Shown piece after piece: positions 28,588 to 32,195 of a stretch of DNA of 64,000 nucleotides (the first letter of the stretch is position 1; every line of letters starts with the position of its first letter). Under the pieces are notes generated by a model. It saw only the letters and a list, made by a program, of their open reading frames with translations. It did not search any database and was not told the DNA's origin. This DNA comes from Flavobacteriales bacterium (GTDB taxonomy: Bacteria > Bacteroidota > Bacteroidia > Flavobacteriales > Schleiferiaceae): NCBI GenBank assembly GCA_017795025.1, contig CP051243.1:1364001-1428000 (forward strand). The letters run 5' to 3'. Position numbers and translations under genes: made by a program.

Positions 28588-29028
28588 ATGAACCCATTAA
28601 TGCGCAGCTTTTTTATCCTCTGTCTTGGATTTTTACCCCTGCTCAGTAATGCTCAAGCGGCGGAATACATTTTTTGTATCGAAAGCGAGAGCTACGAAAC
28701 CTTTACCGCAAGAGTGGTTTTTAAAGGATTGGATTTTGGCGCCAACTCGGCTAAGCAAATGGTTTTAAATGATTTGAACCAGGTTTTAGAAGGCGATTTC
28801 AAGCTTACCACTTATAGCGAAGCTTGTCCTTGTAATGGTGAATGTCCACGCATTGAAGTAAGCTCCGATAATTGGCGTGAAAATTTTAAGAATGGAGATG
28901 CCAAAATCGAAAACTTGTGGGGCTCAGCCGTTGAAGTAGGCGATGCGGTAATCTCGGAAGGCAAGGCTCTATGGGATAATCCAGGGGAATTTTTAATGAC
29001 CCGAATTTTTGGTCAAAGCAAGGGCTAA
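28588..29028 (+). CDS. Hypothetical secreted protein
   Basis: 146 aa with a signal peptide (about 1-24, ending SNAQ). The mature part has cysteines in SEACPCNGECPR, which could form disulfides or bind metal. No family recognised. The next gene's ATG lies 4 bp after the stop, suggesting co-transcription. Confidence 0.6.
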   Translation: MNPLMRSFFILCLGFLPLLSNAQAAEYIFCIESESYETFTARVVFKGLDFGANSAKQMVLNDLNQVLEGDFKLTTYSEACPCNGECPRIEVSSDNWRENFKNGDAKIENLWGSAVEVGDAVISEGKALWDNPGEFLMTRIFGQSKG

Positions 29029-29032
29029 GGCC

Positions 29033-29500
29033 ATGGACCTGCATTTTCGAAAAACCCAAAGCCTGAATCCCGCCATTATAGATTCTCTATTCCAATTATG
29101 GAATGCCGAATACCCTGAAATCATTGCGCATCAAAATACTTCCGAATTAGAAGAATACCTGTTGACCTTTAAAAATGCGGTGCATCGGTTGGCCTTTAAT
29201 TCGGATGCCGAATTGGTTGCTTGGTGCTGCGGATTTGAACGGGAGGATTTACCTTGGTTCGCGATGATTATTGATCGACAATACCAAGGCCTAGGCTTAG
29301 GCAGTAAGTTTCTCTCGGAGCTTAAAAAAGACTACGCCATTCTCAATGGCTGGGCGATTGATCAAGATTCTTACCTACGAGCCGACGGAAGTGTATATCC
29401 CTCACCCCTAGCTTTTTACCAGAAAAATGATTTTCGGATCAGCCAAAGAAGAGGACCTAAAGAAAGTCCTATCTCCATTGTGCACATTTTATGGCCTTAG
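29033..29500 (+). CDS. GNAT family N-acetyltransferase
   Basis: 155 aa from the ATG at 29033; an earlier in-frame start would overlap the preceding gene. The acetyl-CoA-binding motif A is IIDRQYQGLGLGSKFLSELK (the Q/R-x-x-G-x-G/A loop). Cytoplasmic, substrate unknown. The C-terminus (DSYLRADGSVYPSPLAFYQK, then NDFRIS) matches the usual GNAT motif B region. Confidence 0.8.
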   Translation: MDLHFRKTQSLNPAIIDSLFQLWNAEYPEIIAHQNTSELEEYLLTFKNAVHRLAFNSDAELVAWCCGFEREDLPWFAMIIDRQYQGLGLGSKFLSELKKDYAILNGWAIDQDSYLRADGSVYPSPLAFYQKNDFRISQRRGPKESPISIVHILWP

Positions 29501-30841
29501 TTAAAAACGGTAGTGACTGCCAAGATAAAAGGCCCAACTCCTGTACCAGGTGCGATCAAAAGCGGCGGGTATATCCTTATGCCCGAGATACAGATTATTA
29601 AAATTGAAATCGGTCCGAATTCCATACGATAAAACCAAGGGGCCATTACGCCATTCTTGCCCTAAGTTTAATTGCATACCCCAGGCATCGCCATAACGTG
29701 ATTTCAAATTTTGAGACTCGTCACTAGCCTCTCTTAACAGGCCATAGTAAGCTTGTCCGCCCAATACCAGGTTAAAGGCCCTTCTGCCGAAAGGCAAGGG
29801 CAAATGATGCTCAAGTCCGAAGCCAAGATTGGTATACTGCAGTTGCAATTGTTTTGACTGGTATTGCCCTTCTGCATAAGTATTGTAGTAAAGGGATAAA
29901 TCGTTTTGCGGCTGCCATTGTGCTTTTAGGGACCAGCGCGGATTAAGGCGATAGCGCAAATCCAAACTGAAATTATGACTGTAAGCTGGGGAGCTCGCCA
30001 CCAGACTGCGGGGATTTAAACTCTCGCGATACTGATTATTACTTAAGAAATCGCGACTGTAGGCATAGGTTAAACCAAGTTCCCAGTGCTTAAATCGCGA
30101 AGTAGGCCGCTTCGGCTTAATGGTCATTGGGCCTTTTCGAGCGGCTCTCAAAACACCTAATTCGGGAGCTATATTAAATGCTAACCAAGATTTTAAATCG
30201 ACCGATATCTTGGAACTATTCGAATCCATTTGGCCCGACCACGCAGTTTGCGGGGAAGGCCTTGGAACTCCTCCTGCTGCTGCTATGGGAGGCGCCTCAG
30301 TGGTGTTGCCCCCAGCTCTTGACGCCACTTCCCTAGAAGTGTCTCCTGTGTTTCCAGAACCTGTACCCGAGGTTGCCCGTGGGGCTAAAGATTCTTTTTC
30401 CTCCAAACGAGCCGCTCCCTCAGTGGGATTGCTACTCAAAGGTTTTTCCAAGTCTTCGATTGGATTGTCCTTTAATGAGTTTTGCTTGGGAAGACCGGTC
30501 TCCCTTTGATTAAGTTCTAAGCCCCAGTAAGTTAGACCAAACAGTAAAATAAGTAGGGCGGCTATACGGGCCGACCAACGGTAGAAGATACGGCGATTGA
30601 GGTATGCGTTGATTCCCTTCCAAGCCGCGTCGATGGTAAGTTGACGGTTAATACCCGCCCAAATAGCTTCGGGGGCGTTTTCGGCCTGCGCTTCGAAGGA
30701 AGCTTTAACCTCTTGATCCAAACGCGATTCTTCGGCAGCCATTTTTTGATCCATAGCTGCCCATAGCCCTTCGGGAGCTTTTTGCTCCGAAGCGGCAAAG
30801 CTTTCGCGTATTTTGGCGTCTATGTCCTTATTCCGGTCCAT
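29501..30841 (-). CDS. Dual-membrane anti-sigma factor with outer-membrane barrel (Dma-like)
   Basis: 446 aa. Residues 1-89 are cytoplasmic and hold two tandem copies of a motif SFxAxxxxAPExxWxxIxxxL (about 14-33 and 48-67). Residues 90-109 form one membrane helix (ARIAALLILLFGLTYWGLEL). A Ser/Thr/Gly/Pro-rich linker (110-245) follows, then a beta-barrel-like region from about 250 with alternating aromatic strands, ending in Phe (GSHYRF), as outer-membrane barrels do. This is the layout reported for dual membrane-spanning anti-sigma proteins of Bacteroidota. It overlaps the ECF sigma gene by 14 bp, so it is most likely its inhibitor. Confidence 0.75.
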   Translation of the reverse strand: MDRNKDIDAKIRESFAASEQKAPEGLWAAMDQKMAAEESRLDQEVKASFEAQAENAPEAIWAGINRQLTIDAAWKGINAYLNRRIFYRWSARIAALLILLFGLTYWGLELNQRETGLPKQNSLKDNPIEDLEKPLSSNPTEGAARLEEKESLAPRATSGTGSGNTGDTSREVASRAGGNTTEAPPIAAAGGVPRPSPQTAWSGQMDSNSSKISVDLKSWLAFNIAPELGVLRAARKGPMTIKPKRPTSRFKHWELGLTYAYSRDFLSNNQYRESLNPRSLVASSPAYSHNFSLDLRYRLNPRWSLKAQWQPQNDLSLYYNTYAEGQYQSKQLQLQYTNLGFGLEHHLPLPFGRRAFNLVLGGQAYYGLLREASDESQNLKSRYGDAWGMQLNLGQEWRNGPLVLSYGIRTDFNFNNLYLGHKDIPAAFDRTWYRSWAFYLGSHYRF

Positions 30842-31388
30842 TCAACTTTTCCAGTCTTTCGCGCAACAATCCCCGGGCGCGGTTCAATTGCGATTTAGAG
30901 GTGCCTTCACTAATTCCCATCAGGTCGGCAATTTCCTTATGGGCGTAGCCTTCAATGGCGTATAATTTTAAAACCATTCCCGCCTTGTCGGGCAGGTGGT
31001 TAACTAGGTTTACAATTTCTTTGGCTTGTATGCTCGCTAAAAGCTCATCACTCACCAAGTTCTGCTGCTCGTGGAATTCGCGAATCACCTCTTCTTTGCG
31101 GCGCTTGGCGCGATAATGTTCAAGGGCTTTATTAACAATGATTCGACGAATCCAACCTTCGAAAGAGCCTTGAAATTTGTAGCGATCTAGCTTGCGAAAC
31201 ACATTGATAAAGCCATCTTGGAGGATATCGGCCGCCTCATCTTCATCCTTACTATAGGTGATTGCCACCCGATACATTTGGTCGGCAAATTTGCGGTAAA
31301 GGGCTTCTTGGTAACGACGGTCATTCTTCAAACAGGCCTCAATCAAGGCCTCATCCGAAAGGGTATGTATGTCGTTTACTTTGCTCAC
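30828..31388 (-). CDS. ECF-type RNA polymerase sigma factor
   Basis: 186 aa. Region 2 (about 25-90: FADQMYRVAITYSKDEDEAA then DILQDGFINVFRKLDRY and GSFEGWIRRIIVNKALEHYR) and region 4 (about 125-180: LPDKAGMVLKLYAIEGYAHKE, EIADLMGISEGTSKSQLNRA). Start is GTG, in a GTGA overlap with the stop of the preceding lipoprotein gene, and it overlaps the anti-sigma gene by 14 bp. This is the usual layout for an ECF sigma that is held inactive by the adjacent membrane protein. Confidence 0.93.
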   Translation of the reverse strand: MSKVNDIHTLSDEALIEACLKNDRRYQEALYRKFADQMYRVAITYSKDEDEAADILQDGFINVFRKLDRYKFQGSFEGWIRRIIVNKALEHYRAKRRKEEVIREFHEQQNLVSDELLASIQAKEIVNLVNHLPDKAGMVLKLYAIEGYAHKEIADLMGISEGTSKSQLNRARGLLRERLEKLNGPE

Positions 31389-32071
31389 TGAATGGTTAAT
31401 TGATTCAGTTCATCCAGTCGGTTATCGATTTCGGTATAAAAATCGGAATTCACCTGTCGGTTAATGAGTAAGATGGAGTCTCCATTGTGAAGGCTACGAG
31501 GGGCCGCTTCTAATTGCTCAATGCTGATCCCTGAAAACCAATGACCGGGATTAAACTCAATTTTCCCTATCCGTACATTTCCTTCCTGAAAAACCAATTC
31601 TTGTCCCCCATTCGCATTTCGCGCCAGGAAGGAGAAGTTTTCAAAACTGTCGACTTCCAACATCAAGGGTAACCAATCGCCATTCGCCTTTTTCAATCGG
31701 CCCACCACGATTAGGGTCGGAATATTCGCTGAGGGTATCTCGAAGTTTAATTGCAGGGTATTGTAAATGCCTTGGGGCAGATCAAATTGAAGGGCCGCAG
31801 CAATTTGCAGGGAATCAAATAAAATTTCTAGTGGGGGTTGATAGCCATTTTTAAAGAAATAATCTTCGGCCTCTACCCGATCGCCATCTAGTTGAAAGCT
31901 GGAAATCCGGATTAGCCCGCCATCAAACTCAAGACGCCCTAATTTGGTGGGTACGCGATTTATATCCACCTGAAAGAGCAAGGCTCCCGGTGCTTTAAAA
32001 TCTGCTGATTCATCGGCGGCACAGCCGGCCAAGATCAATAAGCTTAAAAGGAATAATTGTATCCGTTTCAT
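31385..32071 (-). CDS. Hypothetical lipoprotein upstream of sigma factor
   Basis: 228 aa lipoprotein (LILAGCAAD, Cys17). The mature part is beta-rich with repeated FEFDG..., LQLNFEIPSANIP, FQEGNVRIGKIEFNPGHWFSG. No family recognised. Its stop overlaps the GTG start of the ECF sigma, so it is probably the first gene of the sigma operon and may be the envelope-side input or target. Confidence 0.65.
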   Translation of the reverse strand: MKRIQLFLLSLLILAGCAADESADFKAPGALLFQVDINRVPTKLGRLEFDGGLIRISSFQLDGDRVEAEDYFFKNGYQPPLEILFDSLQIAAALQFDLPQGIYNTLQLNFEIPSANIPTLIVVGRLKKANGDWLPLMLEVDSFENFSFLARNANGGQELVFQEGNVRIGKIEFNPGHWFSGISIEQLEAAPRSLHNGDSILLINRQVNSDFYTEIDNRLDELNQLTIQ

Positions 32072-32195
32072 TTCTGCTTCTTAGACGGCTCTACTTCCAT
32101 AGAGGTTGGAAAGGCCTTCAAAGAATTTTAAATCCTTGCAAATATCAATAAAGCTACTGATTATCAAATCAGTATGACAAATGAGCTGGATTCTT

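Follow-up and report, generated by a model that had tools for sequence, protein, structure and literature searches.

Introduction

Can a single protein chain hold a sigma factor in the cytoplasm and at the same time report on the state of the outer membrane? The question is raised by two overlapping genes within a stretch of 64,000 nucleotides from a Flavobacteriales bacterium (contig CP051243.1, positions 1,364,001 to 1,428,000; hereafter, the window), for which an earlier sequence-only reading had proposed an ECF sigma factor paired with a dual-membrane anti-sigma factor. The family that this reading named, dual membrane-spanning anti-sigma factors in Bacteroides, is indeed published for B. 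thetaiotaomicron, where the proteins are called Dma (PMC13088901, the accessible part of the text). We examined the locus and its relatives by profile searches, alignment, fold prediction and promoter reading, and conclude that it probably represents an autoregulated cell-surface signalling operon, comprising a lipoprotein, an ECF sigma factor and a Dma-like anti-sigma factor, together with a small regulon of exported proteins.

Results

Organization of the locus

The gene for the Dma-like anti-sigma factor (446 aa; 29501..30841, minus strand; defined by open reading frame, alignment, hydropathy and an AlphaFold2 model) shares 14 bp with the gene for the ECF sigma factor (186 aa, GTG start; 30828..31388, minus strand; Pfam and NCBIfam matches). 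The sizes and positions of both products and their 14-bp overlap were exact in the sequence-only reading, and its naming of the sigma factor was in full agreement with the matches obtained to Sigma70_r2 (1.9e-15) and Sigma70_r4_2 (1.5e-13). Absent from that reading was the gene at 31385..32071 (minus strand), the first of the operon, which encodes a 228-aa lipoprotein (open reading frame, profile searches and fold model) and shares 4 bp with the start of the sigma gene. Because of this 4-bp overlap and that between the sigma and anti-sigma genes, the locus looks like a three-gene operon in the order lipoprotein, sigma, anti-sigma, an order that is also present beyond the genus. Convergent to the operon, at 28588-29500 on the plus strand, lie two genes, one encoding a 146-aa protein whose N-terminus is export-like and the other a GNAT acetyltransferase; counterparts of both were seen in the genus loci L002-L005, and L006 has a counterpart of the 146-aa gene alone.

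Among the 25 NCBIfam models listed for the sigma factor, the general model TIGR02937 alone scored over its cut-off. Of at least 582 sigma relatives, the 80 nearest bear titles that we read as Bacteroidota taxa, save one titled only "bacterium" (L051), and no B. thetaiotaomicron title occurs among these 80. In the window's genome the Sigma70_r4_2 cut-off is exceeded at 15 places, of which about 11 are distinct and sigma-like. In the same assembly (G000:C1), like matches come in pairs separated each time by 3,383,583 bases (13941/3397524, 17883/3401466 and 35060/3418643); this suggests that roughly 55 kb of circular overlap were left untrimmed at the assembly ends.

Architecture of the anti-sigma factor

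The 446-aa protein was divided into the tandem W-units (residues ~5-84), a membrane helix (residues ~85-111), a disordered linker (residues ~114-248) and a C-terminal eight-stranded outer-membrane barrel (residues 249-446; 29504..30097, minus strand; AlphaFold2 model and structure matches). Hydropathy windows exceeded 1.0 only at about residues 84-112, giving a single hydrophobic stretch where the sequence-only reading had placed one membrane helix; the chain ends in YRF, with the terminal Phe that was also noted there. The linker was as long as had been claimed, but it is not the Ser/Thr-rich segment described: its composition over 141 residues (S 16, A 15, P 14, G 13, L 11, T 11) makes it rich in S, A, P and G instead. 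It measures 146 residues in the window protein, the tether being given as about 135-146, and ranged from 110 to 286 residues (median 155) among the 29 proteins having both a barrel match and a membrane helix by hydropathy, in a survey where 24 of the 31 barrel matches were themselves the builders of the profile. Such lengths fit a chain that crosses the periplasm.

The AlphaFold2 model, built from 24 sequences, gave blocks of pLDDT 55-87 over residues 1-110 (55-76 ahead of the membrane helix) with no confident fold for the cytoplasmic part, values below 50 over most of residues 116-246, and an eight-stranded barrel at residues 252-445 with pLDDT mostly above 90. Structure matches to this model by Foldseek and VIA covered the barrel part only: OmpA (9fzc; Z 17.2, rmsd 2.8, 166 aligned), NspA (1p4t; Z 17.1, rmsd 3.2, 154 aligned), OprF (4rlc; Z 16.6, rmsd 2.0, 130 aligned) and OmpW (2f1v; Z 16.3, rmsd 2.5, 170 aligned). 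The C-terminal part is predicted from the model to be an OmpA/OmpW-like transmembrane barrel of OMP type and not a soluble domain, so that the barrel-like part of the sequence-only reading appears as an eight-stranded barrel, and not as a soluble periplasmic fold. The Pfam families OMP_b-brl_2 and OMP_b-brl each matched 5/24 homologues, with a best E of 1.7e-7, and neither matched the window protein itself; over its 446 aa, Pfam and NCBIfam yielded zero matches above cut-off, and a match to DUF6268 (E 0.18) was taken as noise. A search of PDB sequences with the anti-sigma profile likewise gave zero matches at E<=1. For residues 1-89 there was no Pfam or NCBIfam match at E<=1, the class I anti-sigma domain included, and neither the class I anti-sigma family nor NigD was among the Pfam and NCBIfam matches of the operon proteins and their homologues, which is an observation of absence only.

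Regulated proteolysis would be one way to free the sigma factor: the barrel would act as the sensor, the linker would be cut, and a site-2-type protease would then release the sigma-bound N-terminus in an RseA-like manner. Such proteolysis has general precedent among membrane anti-sigma factors, and a linker with pLDDT values as low as those above would be easily cut. A weak argument against it is that no protease match was obtained for the three operon products and the two downstream genes; the flanking 804-aa and 627-aa open reading frames look by eye like signalling proteins. We give this route a substantial chance, somewhat short of even.

Tandem W-units in the cytoplasmic part

The cytoplasmic part (30590..30829, minus strand; assigned by alignment, shuffles and pattern) contains a first unit with APEGLW (residues 22-27), a second with APEAIW (residues 56-61), and a partial third element. 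The two N-terminal halves aligned with a score of 66 compared to a shuffled mean of 21, and 0/5000 shuffles scored as high; the APE..W duplication pointed out in the sequence-only reading exceeds chance in this test of the two halves. Residues P23, W27, P57 and W61 were invariant in 6/6 aligned genus sequences, the window's included. The partial third element, W..I...L at W74, goes beyond the two copies first noticed.

Copies of the W-unit were counted by pattern in 106 homologues or sigma neighbours: 68 had one, 23 had two, 1 had three and 11 had none, and in 3/106 a membrane helix was undetected. This set was made up of 73 proteins from sigma-homologue loci and 33 anti-sigma homologues, with redundancy kept in; it includes one lipoprotein (L052, no membrane helix), and L007 and L008 were counted as having no membrane helix, although the alignment shows two W-copies in both. 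The units are spaced by 30-39 residues, excluding the second copy position in the pattern listing for L065, which is an artefact. In the alignment of the 33 homologues the general copy was the one nearest the membrane, and the two-unit proteins carry differing C-terminal parts. The copy-number label required 9 changes on the sigma tree (a raw count with no shuffle baseline, on a quick tree of 103 rows with 47/100 inner branches open). By pattern and alignment, the W-motif is a repeat unit of varying number. Elsewhere in the window's genome, in the region of G000:C1:2718519 (L224), the gene behind another ECF sigma gene encodes 480 aa, with three tandem N..NW units, read by eye, ahead of the membrane helix.

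The sequence-only reading had suggested that the two copies provide two sigma-binding sites, directed to regions 2 and 4. The duplication itself holds up, recurs among relatives and is conserved within the genus; the split between region 2 and region 4 is disfavoured by the 68/106 single-copy proteins. Because of these same proteins one W-unit would usually suffice, and a requirement for both copies, one per sigma region, was rejected, most relatives being single-copy by pattern. The two-helix anti-sigma domain of CnrY contacts both sigma2 and sigma4 (PMC7406223, the portion of the text cited here), so that a full minimal module per W-unit is the more economical reading; by this analogy, the two W-units are more likely two complete minimal sigma-binding units. 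A bolder version, which we regard as speculative and rather unlikely in its entirety, is that each W-unit is a complete module, that the number of units (1-3) sets how many sigma molecules are held per sensor, that threshold and burst size are tuned by the repeat count, and that the operon's lipoprotein, at the cell surface, feeds back on the sensor. The varying number of W-units in any case makes binding stoichiometry open to test.

The operon lipoprotein

The best fold match to the lipoprotein by VIA was a modest one, to MbnP (7l6g; Z 8.9, rmsd 4.3, 174 aligned), and the modelled fold bears a modest resemblance to MbnP and fimbrillin-like proteins; Foldseek returned no match at E<=0.001. Profile matches to the window lipoprotein were limited to LPAM_1, below cut-off. 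Among 28 aligned members, DUF4382 was touched by 4 (best E 0.009) and the MbnP profile by 1 (E 0.087), and the operon lipoprotein had no match to DUF4943 at E<=1. The single match from a search of PDB sequences with the lipoprotein profile (E 0.13) was taken as chance.

Lipoprotein matches were obtained in 13/295 genomes of the class. In 3 of these 13 no sigma or anti-sigma match adjoined, and in a fourth (L047) there was a weak sigma match only. In L052 (5621-7065) two tandem lipoprotein paralogues lie downstream of sigma and no anti-sigma gene is directly behind sigma. In L161 (1501-2207), from genome G004, the anti-sigma gene is directly followed by a lipoprotein gene whose product is DUF4382-like (E 2.3e-4, below cut-off) and which carries a promoter motif of its own.

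A candidate promoter and the genes behind it

Motif reading of the upstream regions gave a predicted ECF promoter at 32083..32111 (minus strand), TTCCAACC-N16-CGTCT. There are 12 nt between the CGTC of this promoter and the lipoprotein ATG (window 32071-32087), and with so short a gap between the predicted -10 box and the ATG, the operon transcript would have almost no leader. The operon is predicted to start at a conserved ECF-type promoter of the form TTCCAAC[C/T]-N16-CGTC. With fixed spacing, this form occurred in 12/20 lipoprotein-upstream regions compared to a shuffled mean of 0.04 and maximum of 1 (300 rounds), the pattern having been written after reading those same 20 regions; the strict form was missing from 8/20.

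In the wider sigma group the motif was found at 4/75 loci on the plus strand versus 2 on the minus strand, and so is not a general signal of that group. Looser patterns in 7 genus genomes were at or below their reversed controls (15 versus 31, and 34 versus 41), and the loose motif was rejected as a plain genome-wide signal. The motif is meaningful solely in its strict form, by gene context and orthology. Gene context did set the relaxed sites apart from their control: those of the genus lay outside open reading frames, at about -10 to 60 nt from an ATG, in 18/31 cases, 6 of them operon sites, compared to 0/30 for the control (18/31 was counted by eye; the examined sites leave out 3/34 relaxed and 11/41 control sites for which there was no locus).

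The strict pattern TTCCAACY-N16-CGTCW had 16 sites in six genus genomes and 0 in the seventh (G006), with 3 in the control. Fifteen of the 16 were located 12-56 nt from the ATG of an open reading frame with an export-like or lipoprotein-signal N-terminus, as judged by eye. The genes behind them were the operon lipoprotein (5 sites, which are operon sites that helped define the motif), a TonB receptor (5), a protein with a T9SS tail (3) and a 179-aa lipoprotein (2, both sites sitting inside an opposite-strand open reading frame); the sixteenth site (L273) had no export-like open reading frame behind it. In the window's genome the candidate targets are the TonB receptor in the region of G000:C1:554315, the T9SS-tail gene at G000:C1:254239-255273 and a 167-aa lipoprotein behind G000:C1:1803879. 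The gene for the TonB receptor, which has Plug and barrel domains, had a site in 6/6 operon-bearing genomes when AAC[C/T] was allowed, the base having been widened once the sequences had been read (2/6 have AACC, and G001 and G005 are near-identical there), and none in G006. The T9SS-tail gene (Por_Secre_tail) had a site in 5/6 operon-bearing genomes; degenerate sites of this gene were read by eye as AACC-N16-CGTA in G004 and AACC-N16-CGTT in G006. One conserved site, seen in three genomes (L146, L153, L162), falls inside a coding sequence of 335 or 435 aa and was set aside as coding conservation. In 7 genomes of other families the relaxed pattern gave 19 sites versus 2 for the control, in 6/7 genomes; 5 of the 19 were at operons and 3 others directly after an anti-sigma gene, two of these being 34 and 38 nt before open reading frames with export-like N-termini. 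The motif could be read by another ECF sigma of the same genome.

The nature of these genes bears on a second possibility, that the barrel samples the insertion capacity of the outer membrane and that failed insertion leads to its degradation and so frees sigma. Outer-membrane and surface proteins among the predicted targets would suit such a sensor, as would a barrel in 24/24 of the homologues used for the fold (from which the profile was built); however, the genes behind the sites read are surface cargo, lipoproteins and a receptor, with no assembly factor recognised (by eye, and by Pfam for part of them), and we consider this explanation improbable.

Spread and conservation

The anti-sigma profile search gave matches in 29/295 genomes of the class, and an ECF sigma match adjoined the best anti-sigma locus in 29/29 of these (weakly for L022 and L031; L032 is cut by a contig end). 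The barrel profile matched 17/33 aligned anti-sigma homologues, genus included, so the 29 matched genomes are not all of the barrel type. Four homologues (L015, L016, L021, L025) have the W-motif and a membrane stretch and no barrel match, with a C-terminal FTP[ND]GDG part instead, resembling a gliding-motility/T9SS-type domain.

A lipoprotein gene was found upstream of the sigma/anti-sigma pair in 15/34 anti-sigma loci (L001-L034; the weakest is L013 with E 7e-6, L017 was judged through L045, and short flanks may hide a lipoprotein in some loci) and in 8/80 sigma-homologue loci, redundancy being kept in for the homologue sets of both searches. On the sigma tree the lipoprotein label clusters, with 6 changes compared to a shuffled mean of 19.3 and 0/500 shuffles as low; the starred branches alone force 2 changes. 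The wider sigma group was mostly without the lipoprotein and without the promoter motif. Genome G006 gave no anti-sigma match, and its best sigma match was 37% identical compared to 73-80% for genus orthologues, which indicates that the operon is absent from this assembly (89% complete).

That the W-units do not bind sigma, and that the protein is an intermembrane tether merely co-transcribed with sigma, could be argued from an N-terminal part that is short and has no confident fold, but is made very improbable by the sigma adjacency in every matched genome, by the recurrence of the W-motif beside ECF sigma genes in proteins with quite different C-terminal parts and lengths, and by B. thetaiotaomicron Dma2, of like layout, whose mutant phenotype depends on the sigma gene das2 (PMC13088901, accessible part).

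Discussion

From what was computed here, namely the gene order and its conservation, the barrel prediction, the linker length, the tandem units, the promoter motif and the genes behind it, we infer how such an autoregulated operon may work. The tandem W-units in the cytoplasm would keep sigma bound at the inner membrane, and the membrane helix and disordered tether would join them to the eight-stranded barrel, presumably inserted in the outer membrane. A change in the state of the barrel, brought about by a ligand, a partner lipoprotein or an outer-membrane condition, would free sigma. The freed sigma would then transcribe its own operon from TTCCAAC[C/T]-N16-CGTC, and would also drive the TonB-dependent receptor, the T9SS-tail protein and lipoproteins from like promoters. 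The promoter, the likely targets and the repeated binding unit tentatively look new, as a limited literature search gave no earlier account of them.

The control of Bacteroidota ECF sigma factors is an open question, since class I anti-sigma domains, which are four-helix domains of about 100 residues on average with helix 4 on sigma2, accompany only 6% of Bacteroidetes ECFs (PMC7406223, in the portion cited). The class II protein CnrY, having a short cytoplasmic anti-sigma part, is a possible model for one W-unit by analogy; unlike CnrY, the W-units vary from one to three in number and are joined in this protein to a predicted outer-membrane barrel. In the FecA/FecR/FecI system an ECF sigma factor is likewise under the control of an outer-membrane event, with receptor and anti-sigma factor on different proteins. 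The system proposed here resembles it in that an outer-membrane event would act on an ECF sigma and in having a TonB receptor among the predicted targets, whereas the barrel and the anti-sigma part are here one chain.

For the promoter, the closest likeness is to the SM6 promoters of Flavobacterium psychrophilum, where a -10 CGT box is attributed to ECF sigma factors and the targets include T9SS-related genes and an ECF/anti-sigma pair, the sigma behind SM6 being not settled (PMC9723704, as far as the accessible text goes). Both have a CGT -10 box and T9SS-related targets; they differ in that no "AACC" string stands at the start of a word in the accessible text of PMC9723704, where the logos are figures.

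The Dma proteins of B. thetaiotaomicron have a sigma-binding N-terminus, a membrane helix, a long disordered tether and a C-terminal barrel, and are encoded adjacent to an ECF sigma gene; Dma2 lies in a three-gene operon, where das2 and bt_1557, the latter annotated as a DUF4943 protein, rise upon deletion of dma2 (PMC13088901, accessible part). This rise of das2 and its neighbours is in line with the autoregulation proposed here. The window protein shares with Dma1 and Dma2, paired with Das1 and Das2, the membrane helix, the long tether, the C-terminal barrel and the adjoining ECF sigma gene, a likeness of layout and adjacency. In contrast to the Dma2 operon, the third gene is here a lipoprotein upstream of sigma, without a DUF4943 match; and in contrast to Dma1 and Dma2, a tandem-repeat cytoplasmic part is stated, and a promoter motif and a surface target set are predicted. 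The evidence supports the 446-aa protein as a Dma-like protein outside Bacteroides, of a layout already published and not itself new. The analysis proposes a promoter and target set for one Dma-type system, which can be tested with a simple reporter, and extends the Dma design beyond Bacteroides, to another genus and to other families.
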